Both the position numbers and the translations under genes were made by a program. Shown here piece after piece: positions 15,353-33,860 of a DNA stretch of 33,860 nucleotides. The DNA comes from Planctomycetota bacterium. GTDB lineage: Bacteria > Planctomycetota > Planctomycetia > Planctomycetales > Planctomycetaceae. The DNA lies in NCBI GenBank assembly GCA_016872645.1, contig VGZH01000063.1:1-33860 (forward strand), read 5' to 3'. The notes under the pieces are model-generated. The model ran no database searches. It was not told where the DNA came from and was given only the letters and a program-made list of their open reading frames with translations. The stretch's first letter is position 1; each line of letters starts with the position of its first letter.

Positions 15353-15931
15353 ATGAGCCGCGCAGACGATCTTGCTCTCGTTCACGAGTACACGCAGAGC
15401 GACAGCCTGATCAAGCACATGCTGGCCGTCGAAGCGGCGATGCGCGCGTACGCTCGGAGGTTCGGAGAGGACGAGGATAAGTGGGGCACCGTCGGTTTGC
15501 TGCACGACTTCGATTACGAACGCTGGCCGACGGCACCGGATCATCCTTTGCAGGGCTCGCGGATTTTAAAGGAGCGTGGGTACTCGGATGAGATCATCTA
15601 CGCGATCAAATCTCACGCCAGCTACCTGACCGATTGCCCGCGCGTGTCGTCGCTCGACAAGGCGTTGTTCGCGTGCGACGAATTGTGCGGCTTCATCACG
15701 GCCTGCGCGCTGGTGCGGCCAAATCGGTTGGAAGAGCTCGAACCGAAGAGCGTCCGCAAGAAGATGAAACAGGCTTCGTTCGCCGCAGCCGTCCACCGCG
15801 AAGACATTACGGAAGGGGCGGCCAATCTCGGCGTTGACCTCGACGAGCACATTGCGTTTTGCATCGCGGCTTTGCGAGAAATCGCGGCGGATTTGGGGCT
15901 GTTGCCAGCCACCGACTCATTGGAAACGTGA
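15353..15931 (+). CDS. HD-superfamily hydrolase
   Basis: A 192-residue HD-domain protein resembling the predicted hydrolases of COG2316. Metal-ligand candidates are His22 (KHM), the His51-Asp52 pair in LLHDFDYE, His64 in DHP, His88 in KSHAS and an Asp in SSLDKALFACDE. The order H...HD...H...D is that of a metal-dependent phosphohydrolase, often acting on nucleotides. No signal peptide or second domain is visible. GGAG lies seven bases before the ATG. It precedes the ATP-grasp gene on the same strand, but a 175-base repeat-like spacer separates them, so shared transcription is uncertain. Confidence 0.82.
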   Translation: MSRADDLALVHEYTQSDSLIKHMLAVEAAMRAYARRFGEDEDKWGTVGLLHDFDYERWPTAPDHPLQGSRILKERGYSDEIIYAIKSHASYLTDCPRVSSLDKALFACDELCGFITACALVRPNRLEELEPKSVRKKMKQASFAAAVHREDITEGAANLGVDLDEHIAFCIAALREIAADLGLLPATDSLET

Positions 15932-16106
15932 GCGCCGGCGAACGCTGCACTCGCACTCAAGTCCCGTCGTTCGATGTGCGCCCTCGCTCGCGCTTCGGGT
16001 TAGTCGGAGACAAGCCCTGTTGCCTGAATTTGGAATCGTCCGCTACAAGCCCGACCCTTCGTTGGGCGTGAGCGCCCCACTTCGAACACCCTGCGGATTT
16101 CCAAGG
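15932..16106. other. Repeat-like spacer
   Basis: This spacer of 175 bases contains GCGCCCTCGCTCGCGCTTCG (around 15980) and GTTGGGCGTGAGCGCCCCA (around 16062), sequences of the type found as dispersed repeats in planctomycete genomes. An open frame passes through it into the ATP-grasp gene, but its translation is Arg/Ser/Leu-rich without motifs, and it overlaps the end of the HD gene. Confidence 0.5.
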
Positions 16107-17138
16107 ATGGGAAAGCCCCCGTTCACTCTGTTGCTGACCTGCGCGGGCCGCAAGGTCTCACTGGTCAATCAGTTTCGCCAGGCATTCGAAGAACTGGATC
16201 TCGACGGCCAGATCATCGGGGTGGATTCCTCCGCGCACTCGGCGGTGTTGAGCGTCTGCGACAAGTCGTACATTATTCCGCACTGCGATCATCCGGCGTA
16301 TGTGCCGACGCTGCTGGAGGTGTGCCATCGACATCGAGTCCAGCTGGCGCTTCCGCTGATCGATGTCGATTTGTTGGTGCTGGCCGCGCATCGCGGGCAG
16401 TTCAGTGAGATCGGCACGCTGGCAATGATCTCGTCTCTGCCAGTGGTTCAAATCTGTCGCGACAAAGCGAGTACGTCCCGTTTTTTTGAAGAGCGCGGCA
16501 TCCCGACGGTCCGCTGTTTGTCGATCGAGTCTGTTTGCAACGGTGAGGCACAGTACCCTGTTTTCATCAAGCCGGTGAACGGGTCAGGCAGCCAGCACGC
16601 GTACAAAATTCGCAATCGTGAGGAATTGGATTTCTTTGTGCGTTATGTCCCACAGCCAATGCTGCAAGAGGTCGCACAGGGGCAGGAATATACGGTCGAC
16701 GTTCTGTGCGATCTCGGCGGTCGAGTTATCAACGCCGTCCCGCGCCGCCGACTGGAAGTTCGTGCGGGCGAGATCAGCAAGGGAGCCACCTGCAAAGATT
16801 GGCGAATCATCGATGCGACGGTCGACTTGGCGACGAAGCTCGGCGGAGTCGGGCCGTTGACTGTGCAGTGCTTTGCAGGTGAGGAAGCCGATTCGGCGAT
16901 TCGCTTCACCGAGATCAACCCGCGAGTGGGTGGCGGTCTGCCGTTGTCGATCGCGGCGGGAGCCAACTACCCGAAACAAATCATCCGCATGGCGCTGGGC
17001 CAGGCGATCGAACCGTGTGTCGGCGACTTTGCCGACGAGTTTTACATGTTCCGTTACGAGGAGGGGGTGTATGTCCCCGCAGCGAGTCTCGCGGACATCC
17101 CCTGTCTGCGCGAAATCTCTGAGTGCCGTGCTGCTTGA
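16107..17138 (+). CDS. ATP-grasp enzyme, carbamoyl-phosphate-synthase-like
   Basis: A 343-residue ATP-grasp protein. Residues 5-100 form a pre-ATP-grasp Rossmann fold (LLLTCAGRKVSLV...GVDSS, then LPLIDVDLLVLA), like the short carbamoyl-phosphate-synthase large-subunit homologues. The ATP-binding lysine region is FIKPVNGSGS (153-162), and the metal-binding segment is FTEINPRVGGG (267-277) with Glu269 and Asn271. Such single-domain enzymes ligate a carboxylate to an amine or similar nucleophile through an acyl phosphate. The substrate is unknown. The ATG at 16107 begins the conserved fold. Its last 68 bases overlap the HAD gene. The HAD, GT4 and sugar-transferase genes downstream suggest that it modifies a sugar or builds a glycan precursor. 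Confidence 0.85.
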   Translation: MGKPPFTLLLTCAGRKVSLVNQFRQAFEELDLDGQIIGVDSSAHSAVLSVCDKSYIIPHCDHPAYVPTLLEVCHRHRVQLALPLIDVDLLVLAAHRGQFSEIGTLAMISSLPVVQICRDKASTSRFFEERGIPTVRCLSIESVCNGEAQYPVFIKPVNGSGSQHAYKIRNREELDFFVRYVPQPMLQEVAQGQEYTVDVLCDLGGRVINAVPRRRLEVRAGEISKGATCKDWRIIDATVDLATKLGGVGPLTVQCFAGEEADSAIRFTEINPRVGGGLPLSIAAGANYPKQIIRMALGQAIEPCVGDFADEFYMFRYEEGVYVPAASLADIPCLREISECRAA

Positions 17139-17820
17139 TCTTGACGACACGCTGTATCCGGAGCGGGAATTCGCTCGTGGCGGCTTTCGTGCGGCCGCAG
17201 CCGTGTTGGCCGAGCGCTTGTCACGGTCCGCCGACGAACTCTTCGAGTCGCTGTGGCACGCGTTTGAACGCGGAGTCCGCGGCTCGATCTTCGACACGGT
17301 TCTCGCGGAACTGAACGTACTGTACGACGACGCGCTAATTGCCGAACTGGTCCGAGCCTACCGCTCGCACGAACCACAACTGAGGCTGTTCGAGGACGCC
17401 GATCGCCTGCTTGAATTGCTGTGGCCGCGCTATGGCATCGGCCTGCTCACCGACGGCATAGCCGAGATGCAGCGGCGCAAGGTGAAATCTCTCGGCCTGC
17501 AACACCGCGTCGAGGCGATCGTCTACTCGGACGACTTCGGCCGCGAGCATTGGAAGCCGTCGCCGATTCCATATTTGGAACTGCTCCGCAAGATGCTCGT
17601 CGATCCGTCACGCGCCGTCTACGTCGGCGATAACCCGAAAAAGGATTTCATCGGAGCACGTCGACTCGGCCTGCAGACCATTCGCATCCGCCGGCCAGAC
17701 ACTGAGCACGGCCATTTGGACGCACAACCCGGCTTTGAATCCGATCACGAAATCACTTCCTTGGATTTGCTTCCCGATTGGCTCGCCGCGAACGAGCGAT
17801 CTGAACGACACGCCGCCTGA
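17071..17820 (+). CDS. HAD-superfamily hydrolase (phosphatase)
   Basis: A 249-residue haloacid-dehalogenase-fold phosphatase. Motif I is LLDLDDTLYPE (nucleophile Asp23, acid/base Asp25), motif II is the Thr in GLLTDG, motif III is the Lys in HWKPSP, and motif IV is VGDNPKKDF. The helical cap lies between motifs I and II (C1 type). The ATG at 17071 has an unusually strong ribosome binding site, GAGGAGGGGG, and lies inside the end of the ATP-grasp gene in another frame (68-base overlap), so the two are probably translationally coupled. It probably removes a phosphate from a sugar phosphate or from the product of the neighbouring ligase; this is inference from context. Confidence 0.88.
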   Translation: MSPQRVSRTSPVCAKSLSAVLLDLDDTLYPEREFARGGFRAAAAVLAERLSRSADELFESLWHAFERGVRGSIFDTVLAELNVLYDDALIAELVRAYRSHEPQLRLFEDADRLLELLWPRYGIGLLTDGIAEMQRRKVKSLGLQHRVEAIVYSDDFGREHWKPSPIPYLELLRKMLVDPSRAVYVGDNPKKDFIGARRLGLQTIRIRRPDTEHGHLDAQPGFESDHEITSLDLLPDWLAANERSERHAA

Positions 17821-17850
17821 TGACAATGACGAAAGAATGACGAAGCTCGA

Positions 17851-19092
17851 ATGTCGAAATTAACGTCCACAAACACTCGCCATCCCAAGTTGGCCTACGT
17901 CACGACGCACGCTATCAGTGCCGAAAACCTGATGCACGGGCAACTGACGTTTCTGCGCGAACAAGGGTTTGACATCACCGTGATCGCCGCACCTAGCGAG
18001 TCGCTCGATGTCGTGCGCGAACGTGAAAAAGTGGCGACGATTCCAATCCCGATTGAGCGCGAGATCTCTCCGGCCGCCGATGTGACAACGCTCGCGAAAC
18101 TCTGCAGGTGCTTTCGCAAGCTGCGGCCAGACATCGTCAATGCGGGAACCCCGAAAGCGGGACTGCTTGGCATGCTCGCGGCCAAGCTGACCGGAGTGCC
18201 AGTGCGGCTTTACACGCTGCGCGGTTTGCGATTGGAAACAACATCGGGATTCAAGCAGCAGTTGCTCGCGACGACGGAAAGAATTGCCGCGAGCTGTGCT
18301 CAGCAGGTGATCTGCGTGGGTGACAGCCTGCGGCGGGAGTTCATTCGTCGGGGGCTGGTCACTGCTGACAAGACGATTGTGCTGCGGCACGGTTCATCGA
18401 ATGGCGTGAATGCCGAGCGGTTTCAGTACTCGACCGAACAATTTGCGCAGGTCGAACAATTACGGATTTCGCTGGGGATTCCCGCGAATGCACCGGTGAT
18501 CGGCTTCGTCGGCCGATTGACTCGCGACAAAGGGATCGTCGACCTGCACGAATCTTTTACGCGACTGCTCGTCGAGTTTCCCGATCTGCGGCTTATCCTG
18601 ATCGGCTGGGCCGAACCGGGAGATCCCCTTCCGACAGAAGTTTGGCAGAGCCTCCAGCAGCATCCGCAGATCATTCTCACCGGTGCGATCAAAGACCCGT
18701 CGTTGCACTACGGTCTGTTTGACGTCGTCGTCTTTCCGTCGTCTCGCGAGGGGTTTCCGAATGTGCCGATGGAAGCGGCGGCAGCCGGAGTTCCGGTTGT
18801 GGGCTACTCAGCCACGGGAACGCTCGATGCGGTTGTGGATGGAGTCACAGGCACTCTGGTGCCGTTGCACGACTTGGCCTCGCTGACAGCGGCGACTGCA
18901 GAGTATCTTCGGTATCCATTGCAGCGTCACCGACATGGCGAGGCGGGTCGCCGCCGTGCTTTGCAAGACTTCCGCCGCGAAGACCTCTGGCAATCGCTCG
19001 CCGATTTGTACGTCCATTGGTTGAGCGAGCGCGGATTGCCGTTGCCGATTTCGGCAATTGCGAAGACTGTCCCGCTTCGGAAGACAGCATGA
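17851..19092 (+). CDS. Glycosyltransferase family 4 protein
   Basis: A 413-residue GT-B fold retaining glycosyltransferase. The N-terminal acceptor domain starts KLAYVTTHAISAENL with the glycine-poor loop of the WbpX/PglA-like group. The donor domain starts IGFVGRLTRDKG (217-228) and holds the E-x7-E motif, Glu300 and Glu308, in SREGFPNVPMEAA. It transfers a sugar from a nucleotide sugar, probably to an undecaprenyl-diphosphate sugar made by the product of the next gene, on the inner face of the membrane. Its stop overlaps that gene's start (ATGA). Acceptor and sugar cannot be determined. Confidence 0.9.
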   Translation: MSKLTSTNTRHPKLAYVTTHAISAENLMHGQLTFLREQGFDITVIAAPSESLDVVREREKVATIPIPIEREISPAADVTTLAKLCRCFRKLRPDIVNAGTPKAGLLGMLAAKLTGVPVRLYTLRGLRLETTSGFKQQLLATTERIAASCAQQVICVGDSLRREFIRRGLVTADKTIVLRHGSSNGVNAERFQYSTEQFAQVEQLRISLGIPANAPVIGFVGRLTRDKGIVDLHESFTRLLVEFPDLRLILIGWAEPGDPLPTEVWQSLQQHPQIILTGAIKDPSLHYGLFDVVVFPSSREGFPNVPMEAAAAGVPVVGYSATGTLDAVVDGVTGTLVPLHDLASLTAATAEYLRYPLQRHRHGEAGRRRALQDFRREDLWQSLADLYVHWLSERGLPLPISAIAKTVPLRKTA

Positions 19093-19721
19093 TTTGTTTT
19101 TCAAATCCCTATCGAACATTCGGCAAACGTCTGTTGGACCTGTGCGTCTCGGTACCAGCGTTGTTGTTGGTCGCCCCGTTGTTGGCGGCGATTGCGGTGG
19201 CGATCAAGCTGACGTCTCGCGGTCCGATTGTTTTCGTTCAGGAGCGGATGGGCCGAAACGGTGTCGCGTTTCGCACGTTCAAGTTTCGAACGATGACCGA
19301 CCGACATCGAACATCTCACCAGGAAATCATCGGGAAAACCGACGAGGTCACGGCGATCGGGTACTGGTTGCGGCGGTTCAAGCTCGACGAACTGCTGCAG
19401 TTGTGGAACATTGTCAACGGCGACATGTCGCTGGTTGGCCCGCGGCCGGCATTACCGGCTCAGTTGGCGGAATACACCGATCTTGCTCGGCAGCGATTGC
19501 TCGTGCGGCCGGGTCTGACCGGGCTGGCACAGGTGCATGGCAACATCCACCTGACGTGGCCGGAGCGCTGGATCTACGATGCGGAATACGTTGGGAGTGT
19601 GTCGTTCGCAAACGATGCGTGGATCGTCGTTCGTACAGTTGCGGTTGTGGTGTTGGGTGAGGAACTCTTCCTCAAAAAACCGACGCCGCCGGACGCGCAG
19701 AAGACTCGTCGGGCGGCGTAG
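19089..19721 (+). CDS. Undecaprenyl-phosphate sugar phosphotransferase (PglC/WcaJ-type)
   Basis: A 210-residue initiating sugar transferase of the Bac_transf family (PF02397). It starts the synthesis of a lipid-linked glycan by moving a sugar phosphate from a UDP-sugar to undecaprenyl phosphate. A re-entrant membrane helix lies at about residues 14-40 (KRLLDLCVSVPALLLVAP). The family signatures are RTFKFRTM (62-69), the catalytic Asp100-Glu101 pair in KLDELLQLWNI, SLVGPRP (114-120) and RPGLTGLAQV. The length is that of the short, monotopic PglC form, without the extra membrane domain of WcaJ. The ATG overlaps the GT4 stop by four bases, so the two genes are co-translated. Confidence 0.92.
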   Translation: MICFSNPYRTFGKRLLDLCVSVPALLLVAPLLAAIAVAIKLTSRGPIVFVQERMGRNGVAFRTFKFRTMTDRHRTSHQEIIGKTDEVTAIGYWLRRFKLDELLQLWNIVNGDMSLVGPRPALPAQLAEYTDLARQRLLVRPGLTGLAQVHGNIHLTWPERWIYDAEYVGSVSFANDAWIVVRTVAVVVLGEELFLKKPTPPDAQKTRRAA

Positions 19722-25350: not shown

Positions 25351-25393
25351 ATGCCCGTTTTACTTTCGGCACAATTCGTCAAGGATGACGATC

Positions 25394-26419
25394 ATGAGCA
25401 TGGCAGCAATGGCGAGTCGCACGGCCGCGACATTCTCGCAGTTCGAGCAACTGCGGGAGGGTCGTGCGGTCATCAAGCAAGAGGCAGAAACGCTGCTCGA
25501 ACTGGCTGGCCGGCTGGACATGGACTTCTGCCGCGCGGTCGAACTGATCTTGCAGGCAAATGGCCGGGTCGTCGTCACCGGGATCGGCAAGGCAGGTCTG
25601 ATTGGACAAAAGATCTCGGCGACGTTGGCTTCGACCGGAACGCGTTCGCAATTCTTGCATCCGACCGAGGCCTTGCACGGCGATCTTGGTTGTCTCGGCA
25701 GTGACGACGTGCTGCTGGCGCTGTCCAACAGCGGCGAAACTCAGGAGGTCTGTGACGTCGTCGTCGCTGCACGCAGTCTCGGACTGTCATGCATCGCGCT
25801 GACGGCGAGTGAGTTTAGCACGCTTGGTTCACAGGCCGCGGTCGTGCTGCGGCTTGGTTCGATTCGCGAGGCGGGGCTGATGAGCCTTGCTCCGACCTGC
25901 AGCACCGCCGCGATGTTGGCGGTCGGCGATGCGCTGGCGCTGGTGCTCAGTCGCTCGCGAGGATTCACCCCGCAGCAGTTTGCAGTATTGCATCCCGGAG
26001 GTAGTCTGGGGCGTCGGCTACGTACTGTTCGCGAAGTGATGCGGCGCGGAACACAACTGCGGATCGCGCCGCAGTCAGCGACGATCCGCGAGGTGTTTTC
26101 GTTGCAAACCAGTCACGGTCGGCGCACAGGAGCCGTCATGTTGATCGACAGCGACGGCCGACTGAGCGGGCTGTTCACCGACAGCGATTTGGCCCGGTTG
26201 CTCGAACAGCATCGCGAAGGGCAATTGGATCGACCGATTGCCGAGTCGATGACGATGTCCCCCTTGACGATTGATGCGGACTCGTTGCTGCATGAGGCAG
26301 TCGAGGTGTTGTCGAATCGCAAGATCAGCGAACTGCCTGTCGTCGACGACGAACGACAACCGATCGGGTTGATCGACATCACCGATGTGATCGGACTGAT
26401 GCCTCCGTCGACGACGTAG
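25394..26419 (+). CDS. kdsD: Arabinose-5-phosphate isomerase (KdsD/KpsF type)
   Basis: A 341-residue sugar isomerase that converts ribulose 5-phosphate to arabinose 5-phosphate, the first step towards Kdo of lipopolysaccharide. The SIS domain covers about 40-180, with GIGKAGLIGQK, the family motif HPTEALHGDLG, SNSGET and ALTASEFSTLG. Two CBS domains follow (about 200-335), as in E. coli KdsD (328 residues). The ATG at 25394 has AAGGA eight bases upstream and is preferred over the ATG at 25385, which has none. It is followed after 21 bases by a giant LptC/LptA-like gene, matching the kdsD-lptC-lptA order of proteobacteria. This neighbourhood argues for Kdo synthesis rather than another sugar phosphate. 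Confidence 0.9.
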   Translation: MSMAAMASRTAATFSQFEQLREGRAVIKQEAETLLELAGRLDMDFCRAVELILQANGRVVVTGIGKAGLIGQKISATLASTGTRSQFLHPTEALHGDLGCLGSDDVLLALSNSGETQEVCDVVVAARSLGLSCIALTASEFSTLGSQAAVVLRLGSIREAGLMSLAPTCSTAAMLAVGDALALVLSRSRGFTPQQFAVLHPGGSLGRRLRTVREVMRRGTQLRIAPQSATIREVFSLQTSHGRRTGAVMLIDSDGRLSGLFTDSDLARLLEQHREGQLDRPIAESMTMSPLTIDADSLLHEAVEVLSNRKISELPVVDDERQPIGLIDITDVIGLMPPSTT

Positions 26420-26440
26420 TTGATCCTCCTGGAGTCCCCC

Positions 26441-29400
26441 GTGCTCAAGCGGTTGTCATTTACGCTGACCGTCATTACCAGCCTATCCGGGCTGTACTGG
26501 CTGTACTCGCTGGTCGTGACGCCGCGATTGGCACCCAAGATGCTGACTGCTCTGCAACGCCCGAACAGCAATCACGACGATCTGAAATTCGAACCGCCTC
26601 CTAGCAACATTCAATACGCGGAACAGTTTCTACCCGATGCTGCGTGGGCGGCCAGCGCGAAGCGTCAGATTGCGATGGCGAATGGCGTGATCTACACAAA
26701 CAGTTGGCAATTGAATGACAAGGCGAAGAATCTCTACGAGTTTCGTCCGTTTGCGATGATCTGGTTCAACACGCCCGACGAGAGTGCGGATGACTCCGAT
26801 ACGCATGACAATAAGCCACCAATGACGCTTGTGTCGGATTCCGGGCTCGTGCAATTCTCGTCGGAGTTTGATCCGATCAACAATCGCAAGTACGGTCGCG
26901 TAATCGGCGGCAAACTCGAGGGCCAAGTCGTTGCCGCCGGACCGGATGGACTTTCGATTCGTGGACGCGATTTCTTCTTTTACGAAAAGTCGCTGGAGCT
27001 TCAAAACGATTCGCCCGTGTTGCACAGCGATTCGCCCGTGGTGTTCAGTTTTCAACAGCATCACGGTACGGCCGATCTTGGTTTCAAAGCGGATCTGCGG
27101 CCCTCGGCTGAGTCGCATCGGCCAAACCAACTGTTAGCCGTTGCCGGATTCCGTCGAGTGCAACTGCGAGGACATGTCGAAATGGACCTCGCCGATCCGG
27201 ATAACCCGCTGCATGTGACCTGTGATGAAGTCTTTCAATTCAATCCCGAACAAGAAGTCGCTTCGTTTCATGGCAACGTCATTGTCCAGCGGTTCATCCC
27301 CAACGCTGAACCTGATTTATTGAAGGGCGAAGACTTTCGACTGGACTTCATGAATAACCCCCATCGAGACAATGATCAGACGCCGCGATCGCGAGGCGAC
27401 GCACCGACGTTCGTTCCGATCCTTGGAGGCGATGGCCCCAAAGCCCTGTCGGCGACTGGACCAATCTTAGATGGCCTCGATCTGCAGAACGCACGCACAA
27501 CTTCGGACACCAACCGAGGTTCGTTTGAATTGCGGGAGGCACGCATGACCGGAAGACGTGTCGTCGCCGAGTCTCCCAGCAGAGGCTTGACTGTCTTGGC
27601 AAACAGTTTGATTTATGACGTTGTCGCTCGCACTTTGAGTCTGGTTGTGGTTCCGGCGGCGGGAAAATCGGCGGGGCCAGATTTGAAATCGGTTTTTGTG
27701 CAGCATAAATCCTCGGCCACTGACCTGAATTGTCCCAAACTGCAACTGACACACGACGAAAGCGGTCAAGTGGTTTCTGTCCACGGCGACGGACCGGGCC
27801 GAATGCGTCGCCGAGTGCCTGGCTCAAATGCCGTGGAGTTCTCGGCGAATTGGCAATCACATTTTGATCTGCAGCAAGTGCTCGATACGGAAATGGATCT
27901 GGTCACACTTGTCGGCGACGCGTTCATCGCGCAACCGAATCGAGAGACCAGCCTCGAAGCGGAACAGATTCAGCTTTGGTACGACCGGCCGACCCACGTG
28001 TCAAACAGAGCCGAACTCCGTGCAGGTGCTGGCAGCACTCGCAAAGCAGCCATCGTCACGGTCAACGACGCGGCCGCTCATTCGGTTCCTGATCCTGCGA
28101 CTCGTGAGTTTCGGCCAAGGCAACTTCAGGCGCAGGACAATGTCGTCGTACTGAGCCCGCAATTGAACGCCGAGACGAAGCGATTCATTGTCAACTTTGA
28201 CGACAAATCGTCCGCGACCGGTGAATCGGCCGACGGATCGATGTCACGATCTCGCGTGAGTCAGGTTGGGATGAGCGACGCAAAGACCACCATCAACTCG
28301 AAGACCAAAACTCCTGACAAGCTCGATAGCCTGAAAGATTCTCCGCAACCGCTGCAATTCCGCTCGGATTTGATTCGCGCAAATGTGCAACTGGCCAGCG
28401 GGTCGCGACAAGTCGCCGATCAGCCCGAATTGACCGAGGTCTGGACCGAAGGCCAAGTCGATTTCCAACAGCCGCGTGAAGGCAACGACGAACCGTTGCG
28501 ATTGCTGGGTGACCGATTGCACTTGCGAAACGCCAGCCGCGAGGGTCAGCAGGTGCTGCATGTCTTCGGTCAGCCGGCGATGATTCGAGCACGCGGCTTC
28601 GATCTCGAGGGACAAGAGGTCTTCCTGGATCGTCGCAACAATCGCGTTTGGATCGAAGGCGCGGGTGTGTTGCGGATGCCGGTGAAAAATGACCCGTTTG
28701 ATGGCGCGCCATTTCGCAAACCAACGTTGATGACGGTGCAGTGGAAGGAACAAATGCTCTTCGATGGCCAAACAGCGACGTTCTTGGATGACGTCAACGC
28801 CGTACTCAAAGACAGCCGCCTGCAGTGTGAGGAAATGGAAGTTGTGATGACCGAGCGGCTCTCATTCCGCGATGACGCCGGCCCCGCGCAGACGGCTGAA
28901 GTACAACACGTGATTTGCAAAGACGGAGTTCAAGTCGATCAACGGTTATTCGTCAACGAAGACCCGTCCGAAATTCGACATGGCGAATTCGCGAGACTGA
29001 CAATCAACCAAGTGAGTGGTCAGATGGAGGCCGTCGGTCCCGGTCGCATCGACATGTGGCGTCCCGGCCGGGGCAAACGCGCGGCACTCGCGCCGCGCGC
29101 TGTCGCCAAGGCGAACCGGCCACTGGATTCCGATGTTTCGAATTGGGAGTTCACTCGCGTCACGTTCCAAGGCAAAACCGTCGGCAATCTCCGCGATCGG
29201 CAGACGAAGTTTCAGGATCGAGTGCATATTGTCTACGGCCCAGTCGCACATCCGCTCGACACCATCGACCCTGATCAACTTCCCAGGGACGGTGGCGACA
29301 TGGAATGCGATCTGTTGCAGATTCTCCAAATCAAACCGACGGGTACCCAGAAGCCGTACATCGAACTGGAAGCCAAAGGGAACGCTAAACTCGAGGGCCG

Positions 29401-29611
29401 CACGTTCAACGCTCGTGCCGACGAGATCACCTTCGATGAATCCAAAGAACTCTACACGCTCCGTGCTACTGGAAATCGGCAAGTCACCATTTGGCGTCAA
29501 ACGACACCCGATGGCGAGCCGAGCGAAGCCTCGGCAAAAAGCATGCGTTTCATTCCGTCGCAGAATTATCTCCGTTCCGACCAAACCACGGGGATCCGCG
29601 GGACGAATTGA
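26441..29611 (+). CDS. Giant LptC/LptA (OstA)-like protein
   Basis: A 1056-residue protein with one N-terminal membrane helix (about 6-27) and a long repetitive beta region outside. Segments resemble the LptC/OstA beta-jellyroll: GRVIGGKLEGQVVAA and IRGRDFFFYEKS near residues 150-190; LRGHVEMDLADPDNPLHVTC and ASFHGNVIVQR at about 240-290; LRLLGDRLHLRNASREG with MIRARGFDLEGQEVFLDR at about 680-730; and AKGNAKLEGRTFNARADEIT at the end. E. coli LptC and LptA are each about 190 residues, so this is over five times that length. The GTG at 26441 has GGAG upstream and gives a regular anchor; a TTG at 26420 is less likely. With kdsD directly before it, a role in lipopolysaccharide transport is inferred. 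Confidence 0.72.
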   Translation: MLKRLSFTLTVITSLSGLYWLYSLVVTPRLAPKMLTALQRPNSNHDDLKFEPPPSNIQYAEQFLPDAAWAASAKRQIAMANGVIYTNSWQLNDKAKNLYEFRPFAMIWFNTPDESADDSDTHDNKPPMTLVSDSGLVQFSSEFDPINNRKYGRVIGGKLEGQVVAAGPDGLSIRGRDFFFYEKSLELQNDSPVLHSDSPVVFSFQQHHGTADLGFKADLRPSAESHRPNQLLAVAGFRRVQLRGHVEMDLADPDNPLHVTCDEVFQFNPEQEVASFHGNVIVQRFIPNAEPDLLKGEDFRLDFMNNPHRDNDQTPRSRGDAPTFVPILGGDGPKALSATGPILDGLDLQNARTTSDTNRGSFELREARMTGRRVVAESPSRGLTVLANSLIYDVVARTLSLVVVPAAGKSAGPDLKSVFVQHKSSATDLNCPKLQLTHDESGQVVSVHGDGPGRMRRRVPGSNAVEFSANWQSHFDLQQVLDTEMDLVTLVGDAFIAQPNRETSLEAEQIQLWYDRPTHVSNRAELRAGAGSTRKAAIVTVNDAAAHSVPDPATREFRPRQLQAQDNVVVLSPQLNAETKRFIVNFDDKSSATGESADGSMSRSRVSQVGMSDAKTTINSKTKTPDKLDSLKDSPQPLQFRSDLIRANVQLASGSRQVADQPELTEVWTEGQVDFQQPREGNDEPLRLLGDRLHLRNASREGQQVLHVFGQPAMIRARGFDLEGQEVFLDRRNNRVWIEGAGVLRMPVKNDPFDGAPFRKPTLMTVQWKEQMLFDGQTATFLDDVNAVLKDSRLQCEEMEVVMTERLSFRDDAGPAQTAEVQHVICKDGVQVDQRLFVNEDPSEIRHGEFARLTINQVSGQMEAVGPGRIDMWRPGRGKRAALAPRAVAKANRPLDSDVSNWEFTRVTFQGKTVGNLRDRQTKFQDRVHIVYGPVAHPLDTIDPDQLPRDGGDMECDLLQILQIKPTGTQKPYIELEAKGNAKLEGRTFNARADEITFDESKELYTLRATGNRQVTIWRQTTPDGEPSEASAKSMRFIPSQNYLRSDQTTGIRGTN

Positions 29612-31189: not shown

Positions 31190-32203
31190 CTACGGAACGT
31201 CCAGAATCGGCTTGATGACTTGGCAGCCAATCGCACCGAGGTCGTTCTTGAGTCGCTCAAACATCGCCTCGTCGGAATAGATGCCGACGATTGCTCCGCC
31301 GGAACCGGCGAATTTGGCGCTCGCTCCCGTACGACGTGCCACTTCGATCATCTCGACGTGCTTCGGCGCCAACTGGCAGATGCTGCAGCGCGTGTTGAAG
31401 TTCTCATCCACCAGAGTCGAGAGACGGGCGGTGTCGCGCTTCACAATTGCTTCGCGTGCTAGTGCGGCCAGCGCAGCGAACTTGAGCATCGCGGCGATGA
31501 CCGCCTGATCGCCGGCGCGAAATTTCTCTCGCAGCGGATTGTGAAACACCTCGGTCGGTTCGCTGCCGCCTGTGCTGTAGGCGACGTACAACGGCGGCAG
31601 CAGCATCGGTTCGAGCGGTTCGTAGACGCCGCATTGCAGGCCCATCTGCTCGGTCATGTGCTCTTTCGCGAAATCCATGTAGACGAGTCCGCCGTAGACC
31701 TGAATGACTCGGTCTTGCAGACCGGCCGCGATACCGAGTTCACCGGTTTCGACGCTTAGCACCAGCGACGGCTGAACCTGCTTGGGGATTTCGATGCCGT
31801 AGAAATCCATCAGCGCTCGAAACGTCGCCACGATGATCGCACTCGATCCGGCAAGACCGACCTGCCGAGGAATGTTGCTTTGATAGCGCACCGAAAAATT
31901 GCGATCGTGCAATTTGAAGTGATTGCGTTCACAGAATTCAACGAACCGCTTGATCGTAGCTTTGATGAGCCGAATGCCACCGTAGTAGCCGTGCAAGCGA
32001 ACGTCTTGGGCGAGATCTTTCACGGACCGAAACCGGCTGCGATCTTCCTGGCTGAGGACGATTTCAACGTCTTCCCATTCGTACAAGACGACTTCGGCCC
32101 AGAAGTTCTTCAGGGTGAATGAAATAGTCTTGCCGAAATAGCCGTCCGACGGATTGCCGACCAATCCGGCTCGTGCGTACGCGCGTTGTCGCAGCAGTTC
32201 CAT
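31190..32203 (-). CDS. GHMP kinase, plant-type glucuronokinase-like
   Basis: A 337-residue GHMP-superfamily sugar kinase. The opening [20 protein letters not shown], then NFWAEVVL, the GYYGG motif (72-76), [20 protein letters not shown] (ATP loop, continuing SA), [20 protein letters not shown] and [12 protein letters not shown] near the C-terminus all resemble the plant glucuronokinases as I remember them. Those enzymes phosphorylate D-glucuronate at C1 with ATP. Its start lies 7 bases after the stop of the nucleotidyltransferase gene, and AGGTGA serves as ribosome binding site, so they form an operon. The product, glucuronate 1-phosphate, could be turned into UDP-glucuronate by that neighbour. 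Other GHMP sugar kinases (heptose or fucose kinases) are the alternative. Confidence 0.78.
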
Positions 32204-32210
32204 GAGTCAC

Positions 32211-33086
32211 CTACAACAATTGCCGCACATGCTTGCGCAGAGCAGGTCCGTACTGAGGATCGGCGAGCGCGAACTCGACGAACGCCTGGAAGTAGCTTTC
32301 AAAATTGCCGATGTCGAATCGCCGTTCATCATCCTTAAGTTTCACACCAATTCCCTTGTGGCCTCGCTTGAGCAGGATGCGGATCGCGTCCGTGAGTTGA
32401 ATTTCGCCTTCTTTGCCCGGTTTCGTTTCGGCCAGAGCATCGAAGATGATCGGGCTGAAGACGTATCGAGCTGCGACGGCTAATCGGCTGGGAGCATCGG
32501 CAACGCTCGGTTTTTCGATGAGGTCTGCCAACTCGAAGACCTCGCCAACGGTGTCTTTCGGCCGAGCGATTCCGTAATGAATGACTTCCGCGGCAGGGAC
32601 TTCTTCAAAGCAGACGACGATGTCCGCATTTTCATGCTCGAAGATGGTGGTCATGCGCGAGACGATGTCCGATTCGGCATTCAGGCCGATGATCGAGTCG
32701 CCTAGCGCGACGACGAACGGATGTGCTCCGATCATCGCTTTGCCGCAGAGCACCGCGTGGCCGAGCCCCAATTGCCGTCGTTGTCGAGTGTAAAAATACT
32801 CGACGTCTTCCCGCTCGAACTGCAATTCTTGAAGCTGTTCTTCGCGGCCGGTCTCACGAAGGTATGTGATCAGCGGCGCGTCGATGTCGAAATGATTCTC
32901 GATCGAGGTCTTCCCCTGGCCGGTGATGAACAACACCTGTCGGATGCCGGATTTCACCAACTCCTCGACGACGTACTGCACGACCGGCTTGCGGCCGACC
33001 GGCAGCATTTCCTTCGGCTGCGATTTCGTCGCCGGCAACATCCGCGTGCCCCAACCAGCCACAGGCACCAAAGCCAGATCGATCAT
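32211..33086 (-). CDS. galU: UTP--glucose-1-phosphate uridylyltransferase (GalU-type)
   Basis: A 291-residue nucleotidyltransferase that joins UTP and a sugar 1-phosphate to give a UDP-sugar. The signature GWGTRMLPATKSQPKEMLP (11-29) holds the nucleotide-binding loop and catalytic residues. The later motifs are FITGQGKTSIENHFD, GLGHAVLCGK, VALGDSII, YGIARP, LIEKP and GEIQLTDAI, in the order of bacterial GalU. The length equals that of GalU (about 300 residues). The SQ in place of the usual AI/AV before PKEMLP is minor. It is first in an operon with the glucuronokinase-like gene, so its natural substrate may include glucuronate 1-phosphate. Confidence 0.92.
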   Translation of the reverse strand: MIDLALVPVAGWGTRMLPATKSQPKEMLPVGRKPVVQYVVEELVKSGIRQVLFITGQGKTSIENHFDIDAPLITYLRETGREEQLQELQFEREDVEYFYTRQRRQLGLGHAVLCGKAMIGAHPFVVALGDSIIGLNAESDIVSRMTTIFEHENADIVVCFEEVPAAEVIHYGIARPKDTVGEVFELADLIEKPSVADAPSRLAVAARYVFSPIIFDALAETKPGKEGEIQLTDAIRILLKRGHKGIGVKLKDDERRFDIGNFESYFQAFVEFALADPQYGPALRKHVRQLL

Positions 33087-33248: not shown

Positions 33249-33860
33249 CTACGCCGGCAGCAACGCGGTCGTTTCATCGAAGCCACAGACGAGATTGAAA
33301 TTCTGCACGGCAACCCCGGAAGCTCCCTTGATAAGATTGTCCAGACAGGCAATCACGATCAGTTGGTCACGGCAGAAACGGATGGTGATGTCGCAGTAGT
33401 TCGTGAATGCGGAATCTTTCGTGCTCGGTAAGTGATCGACGACACGAATGAACGGCTTGCCCCGATAGAACTCTCGCAGGACTTGCAGCAGTTCCGGCTG
33501 CGTGGCTGATCGAGTCAGGCGCGGATAGATCGTGGCCAGAATTCCGCGATCCATTGGGATCAGGTGGGGTGTGAAAATGACGCTGACCTTCTGGCCGCTG
33601 GCGTCGGAGAGGACTTGGTCGATCTCCGGTGTGTGGCGGTGCTTGCCGACTGAGTAAGCCGACAAGCCCTCGTTGCACTCGGAGAACAACGTGTTGAGCT
33701 TGGGCGCGCGACCCGCGCCGCTGACGCCGCTCTTGGCATCAATGATGATGCCGGTCGGTTCGATCAGTTTCGCGCACAGCAGTGGGGCGAGCGCCAGAAT
33801 GGACGTGCTGGTGTAGCAACCGGGGTTCGCGATCAGCTCGCAGCCGGGAATCTTCGACGC
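33249..33860 (-). CDS. argC: N-acetyl-gamma-glutamyl-phosphate reductase, 3' part
   Basis: ArgC reduces N-acetylglutamyl 5-phosphate to the semialdehyde with NADPH, the third step of arginine synthesis. Only the last 203 residues are in the window; the gene continues past 33860. Visible are the catalytic cysteine in ANPGCYTST, the [16 protein letters not shown] segment, the second active-site region [26 protein letters not shown] and the C-terminal [18 protein letters not shown]. All family positions in this half are present and in frame. The stop is TAG at 33249-33251. It is followed by galU after the 162-base gap. Confidence 0.96.

Follow-up and report, generated by a model that had tools for sequence, protein, structure and literature searches.

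In bacteria, UDP-glucuronate is generally assumed to arise by oxidation of UDP-glucose. Two adjacent genes on a contig of a planctomycete raise the question of whether some bacteria build it instead from free glucuronate. Within the window (the whole stretch of DNA analysed, 33,860 nucleotides), the first of these genes encodes a GHMP kinase of 337 aa (31190..32203, minus strand; open reading frame with Pfam domain PF00288) and the second a GalU-like sugar-1-phosphate uridylyltransferase of 291 aa (32211..33086, minus strand; open reading frame with PF00483). We propose that they are a glucuronate 1-kinase and a glucuronate-1-phosphate uridylyltransferase, and we think it probable that they form a dedicated pair that converts free glucuronate to UDP-glucuronate, these being the substrates that we infer for the two enzymes. 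The kinase would use ATP to phosphorylate glucuronate at C1, and the GalU-like enzyme would combine the resulting glucuronate 1-phosphate with UTP to give UDP-glucuronate and pyrophosphate.

The kinase and its family

The kinase has both the domain and the fold of the GHMP kinases. PF00288 (GHMP_kinases_N) matches its reading frame at 48.9 bits against a cut-off of 22.3 in the Pfam scan, its predicted structure (pLDDT 90.1) has the GHMP fold, and the galactokinase 1pie aligns to the model with Z 32.0 and an rmsd of 2.5 over 304 aligned positions (VIA-align 2). The initial annotation described a plant-type glucuronokinase on the strength of four motifs (NPSDxYFGKTIS, GYYGG, NIPRQ.GL.GSSA, and GLQDRV.QVYGGL), all of which are found in the reading frame. 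By analogy with GHMP kinases, Asp164 in GLQDRV is the proposed catalytic aspartate.

One alternative, to which we give only a slim chance, is that the kinase takes another sugar, such as galacturonate, a heptose, or a deoxysugar, and that the pair makes another UDP-sugar. Its nearest neighbors by sequence in the PDB are indeed heptose kinases (such as 3k85 at 62.3 bits) together with mevalonate kinases, and none of the 30 matches to E 10 in a PDB profile search is named a glucuronokinase. For the predicted model, Foldseek ranks the heptokinase WcbL first, and VIA-align 2 gives galactokinases at Z about 32 and WcbL at Z 30.6. Because the GHMP fold is common to kinases of many substrates, this ranking does not point to one substrate. 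Against a different sugar, the best NCBIfam model for the kinase is that of the heptose kinase HddA (NF049969), at only 51.5 bits for a cut-off of 600, and no named GHMP model, including those for heptose, mevalonate, and galactose kinases, comes near its own cut-off. The likeness to WcbL and HddA lies in the shared fold and in database rank, whereas identity to these heptose kinases in structural alignment is about 22%.

Phylogeny also separates the kinase from the heptose kinases. Our tree comprised 33 bacterial and viral-contig members of the family, two HddA chains from the PDB as sole outgroup, and one provisional sequence of an Arabidopsis glucuronokinase (GLCAK1), the only eukaryotic sequence used here, which is not a database record and which we take to represent the plant enzyme. 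The initial annotation had asked for such a tree as a check on its assignment, and in it the two HddA chains split from the 33 kinases and the provisional plant sequence at 100/100, placing the kinase outside HddA by phylogeny as well as by the curated cut-off. The provisional Arabidopsis sequence falls inside the family, beside two viral-contig proteins at 90/98, in a tree that leaves the deeper branching order within the family unresolved.

Residue conservation follows the same division. The provisional plant sequence is 46.6% identical to the window's kinase over 311 aa and 21.6% identical to HddA 3k85 over 315, and it matches 40 of the 41 near-invariant columns of the family, against 24 for 3k85 and 19 for the incomplete 4n3o fragment. 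Arg165 (adjacent to the putative catalytic Asp164), Asn268, Arg272, and Arg290 are each kept in 32–33 of the 33 members as well as in the provisional plant sequence; the two HddA differ at all four positions, with Lys at 272, which again argues against a heptose as the substrate. The nesting of the provisional sequence within the family suggests that the plant-type label may hold, and we regard this apparent link to plant glucuronokinases as a strong lead.

Counting weak matches, 47 of 392 Planctomycetota genomes contain a member of the family, which also occurs on a plasmid from Bacteroidota and on two viral contigs. On one of the latter (IMG/VR contig IMGVR_UViG_3300009034_002981, L170:4001-5020), a kinase sharing 45% identity with that of the window lies near RecA/UvsX-like and QueC-, QueD-, and QueE-like genes. 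The other (IMG/VR contig IMGVR_UViG_3300017963_003169, L171:3755-4741) carries a kinase that is 38% identical. Neither contig has a GalU match within the stretch around the kinase that was examined.

The gene pair and its GalU-like partner

The initial annotation placed the kinase gene seven bases behind the uridylyltransferase gene, and the stop-to-start gap is indeed 32204..32210, between same-strand neighbors on the minus strand. Such spacing is consistent with one transcript for both genes. Upstream of the GalU-like gene and in the same direction lies argC (minus strand, from 33249 to past the window's end; 163 bits on the listed part), whose frame stays open to base 33860, where the window ends.

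The two genes are strongly associated across related genomes. Among 59 genomes (the window's own and 58 relatives; kinase at E ≤ 1e-10, GalU-like gene at E ≤ 1e-30), each gene is found in 21; 20 genomes have both, 37 have neither, the kinase occurs alone in G025, and the GalU-like gene alone in G017. The association is significant by genome (Fisher's exact test P = 1.5e-13) and by genus (P = 5e-8; both genes in 10 genera, kinase only and GalU only in 1 each, neither in 32, with the window's genus scored as having both though its G004 has neither), P values that are rough because the genomes are related and not independent. Kinase and GalU-like protein each recur in 20 of the 58 relatives (at 60–94% identity for the kinase, which in G008 is split across two contigs, and 60–95% for its partner), so the pair is not due to chance. 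Three genomes (G021, G022, and G028) have the two genes on separate contigs, yet still have both. The kinase and uridylyltransferase genes that a salvage route would require are thus present together.

Adjacency extends this pattern to a wider set, comprising the 41 genomes with a kinase that shares 44% identity or more with that of the window (the core-kinase set; 24 genomes with weaker matches were left out). In 29/41 a same-strand GalU-type gene adjoins the kinase, in the order GalU-kinase in 22, with varying gap lengths, and in the order kinase-GalU in 7, one of them (G374) cut by a contig end. Together with the co-occurrence in 20/59 genomes, this bears out the earlier view of the GalU-like gene as the partner of the kinase. 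The remaining 12 have no GalU beside the kinase; seven of these have one elsewhere in the genome (G003, G021, G022, G028, G171, G201, and G137). In G003, contig edges cut short the view, since each of the two genes ends at one. No GalU was found anywhere in the other five (G025, G334, G155, G068, and G098), which counts against a dedicated pair, as does the presence of a TuaD-type UDP-glucose dehydrogenase (defined below) in 7 of the 21 kinase-containing genomes among the 59.

Opposite gene orders go with different GalU proteins. Six of the seven kinase-GalU pairs were placed in the GalU tree, and their GalU falls outside the clade of the window's protein. The two kinase-paired GalU of this other lineage that were scanned both pass the GalU model TIGR01099 (372.2 bits in G360 and 352.5 bits on a Rufibacter plasmid). 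On that plasmid, from the bacteroidote Rufibacter tibetensis, galU follows a kinase 47% identical to the window's. Given two GalU lineages and opposite orders, the plasmid included, the pair seems to have come together on two or more occasions, or else the partner was exchanged.

No further operon partner emerged from Pfam searches of 20 reading frames around deep-branching or unpaired kinases. One of the 20 was itself a kinase. Among the remaining 19, family matches were obtained for 11 and none for 8; the families were mixed and included no glucuronidase. One of these neighbors (L151) matches glucosamine-6-phosphate isomerase and PIG-L.

We are least certain about the specificity of the GalU-like enzyme, which may also be the source of UDP-glucose for the cell, as no other UDP-glucose pyrophosphorylase turned up in the genome. 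The window's protein matches PF00483 (NTP_transferase) at 100.1 bits against a cut-off of 21.2, is similar in length to GalU proteins of the same family, and is about 41% identical to Escherichia coli GalU. One possibility, which we consider somewhat unlikely, is that the kinase is a glucuronokinase and its neighbor a broad UDP-glucose pyrophosphorylase, kept adjacent because it also takes glucuronate 1-phosphate. It is the sole GalU-type protein found in the window's genome, where the other four nucleotidyltransferase matches are RmlA (490.5 bits for a cut-off of 360.65), GlgC (L040; 470.9 bits for a cut-off of 424.9), a protein that is GlmU-like by NCBIfam (L042), and a protein that is GlgC-like by reading of its sequence (L041). 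Nor did the search of this genome yield the UGP-type PF01704, so the GalU-like protein may also, or only, make UDP-glucose. Every GalU-positive genome has a single GalU match (21 of the 59 genomes, and 14 of 24 in a second set).

However, the distribution of the GalU-like gene is tied to that of the kinase. Among the 38 kinase-free genomes, 37 lack this GalU (E ≤ 1e-30) and 35 have PF01704, which is also present in 9 of the 10 kinase-positive relatives from other genera than the window's. Moreover, the window's protein scores 285.2 bits with TIGR01099, under the cut-off of 326.8, and falls in a separate clade at 99/100. These differences from GalU favor a partner dedicated to the kinase. Positions 22, 210, 247, and 259 are common to the window's clade and most kinase-paired GalU and absent from five unpaired GalU; with only five unpaired sequences, three of them close kin, we do not rely on them as specificity residues. 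The alignment comparison established no residue that separates glucuronate-specific from ordinary GalU.

Related routes in plants and animals

The proposed pair resembles the plant enzymes GLCAK and USP, which likewise lead from free glucuronate to UDP-glucuronate in two steps and whose kinase is represented here by the provisional GLCAK1 sequence. The partners differ: in plants the second enzyme is USP, and here it is a GalU-like enzyme encoded next door. USP is described as a broad-specificity pyrophosphorylase (PMC6329318).

The initial annotation regarded this route as known mainly from plants, which proves too narrow, since a fused form exists in animals and fungi. According to one report (PMC3938481), zebrafish DrGKUP combines a bacterial-type nucleotidyltransferase with a glucuronokinase and has homologues in other animals and fungi; glucuronate was the sole substrate used by its kinase domain among nine sugars tried, its pyrophosphorylase activity was very low, and bacterial and archaeal relatives of its nucleotidyltransferase domain are reported as stand-alone proteins. 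The arrangement of DrGKUP, a short bacterial-type nucleotidyltransferase followed by a glucuronokinase, is the order of the GalU-kinase pairs described here, but DrGKUP is one fused protein and the bacterial enzymes are encoded by two genes.

Because the zebrafish and plant routes are known and no bacterial glucuronokinase appears among the open-access papers listed in our searches (subscription journals and preprints lay outside their scope), the chemistry would be familiar, and what we would call new, judging from sequence, is its occurrence in bacteria as two paired genes, with a GalU-like enzyme as the partner. The pair would then be a two-gene bacterial counterpart both to the plant route and to the animal fusion enzyme. 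It would also supply candidate enzymes for UDP-glucuronate synthesis in vitro, for which two reviews (PMC11868170, PMC9875253) mention USP together with the kinase from Arabidopsis.

UDP-glucose dehydrogenase and the source of glucuronate

The pair may stand in for a missing UDP-glucose dehydrogenase. We call a dehydrogenase TuaD-type when it exceeds 300 bits with the UDP-glucose 6-dehydrogenase TuaD model, a line of our own given that no protein in the 59 genomes reaches the curated cut-off of 700. Proteins scoring 302–521 bits occur in 42/59 genomes. The best match in the window's genome scores 119.9 bits, and nothing above 139 bits is found in 17/59, namely all 12 genomes of the window's genus and G015, G017, G020, G021, and G027. 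Of ten dehydrogenases scanned against further models, the two high scorers have TuaD as their best model. The only remaining nucleotide-sugar dehydrogenase of the window's genome (G000:C128, L110:1265-2584) passes a general dehydrogenase model, and the models for UDP-N-acetylmannosamine dehydrogenase reach 254 of 750 bits, below cut-off; no specific model matches it at cut-off, and no UDP-glucose model at E ≤ 1e-60. The earlier suggestion that the pair works without UDP-glucose dehydrogenase accordingly agrees with the window's genome, in which no clear copy was found.

Across the 59 genomes, 14 have the kinase without a TuaD-type protein, 7 have both, 3 have neither, and 35 have a TuaD-type protein without the kinase. 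The kinase is thus associated with the lack of a TuaD-type protein (P = 3.7e-6 by genome, P = 0.027 by genus), and the association is weak outside the window's genus (P = 0.057 by genome). A TuaD-type protein is also present in 8 of 19 further core-kinase genomes (G248 was left out of 20), several of which are incomplete assemblies. We tentatively suggest, as a possibility that we hold with less than even confidence, that in the window's genus the pair has fully replaced UDP-glucose dehydrogenase, with all UDP-glucuronate and UDP-xylose coming from scavenged glucuronate, and that different lineages built the pair from two GalU enzymes in opposite orders.

A distant clade of the kinase family shows a different pattern. 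These kinases (33–38% identity; L145, L146, L147, L148, and L149) come from other Planctomycetota, five genomes examined of the 24 weaker-match genomes outside the core set. A TuaD-type dehydrogenase is present in 5/5 and GalU at E ≤ 1e-25 in 0/5, so this clade may have another role.

UDP-glucuronate is apparently used in the window's organism, since its genome encodes a protein that matches human UXS1 (UDP-glucuronate decarboxylase) at 448 bits over 307 residues. Part of the UDP-glucuronate would pass on to UDP-xylose via this likely decarboxylase, whose presence further argues against a pair devoted to some other sugar. If the dedicated pair makes UDP-glucuronate as we propose, a surface-sugar precursor would depend on a scavenged sugar acid in genomes without a clear UDP-glucose oxidase.

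Free glucuronate might come from uptake or from breakdown of glucuronate-containing glycans, which is a guess because myo-inositol oxygenase was not found in the window's genome. As a source of glucuronate, myo-inositol oxygenase shows no link to the kinase, being present in 3/21 kinase genomes and 10/38 others, counts that leave out one below-cut-off match in G012. G017 (L164, G017:C202) has the GalU-like gene and myo-inositol oxygenase without the kinase or a TuaD-type dehydrogenase.

Elsewhere in the window, the plus strand carries a tight group of genes (15834-19721) that resembles an exopolysaccharide cluster and encodes an ATP-grasp protein, a glycosyltransferase, and an undecaprenyl-phosphate sugar transferase. 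Another stretch (25385-29611) encodes a KpsF/GutQ-type sugar-phosphate isomerase and, directly after it, a protein of 1063 aa that matches LptD_N/LptA weakly, a combination that hints at work on lipopolysaccharide.
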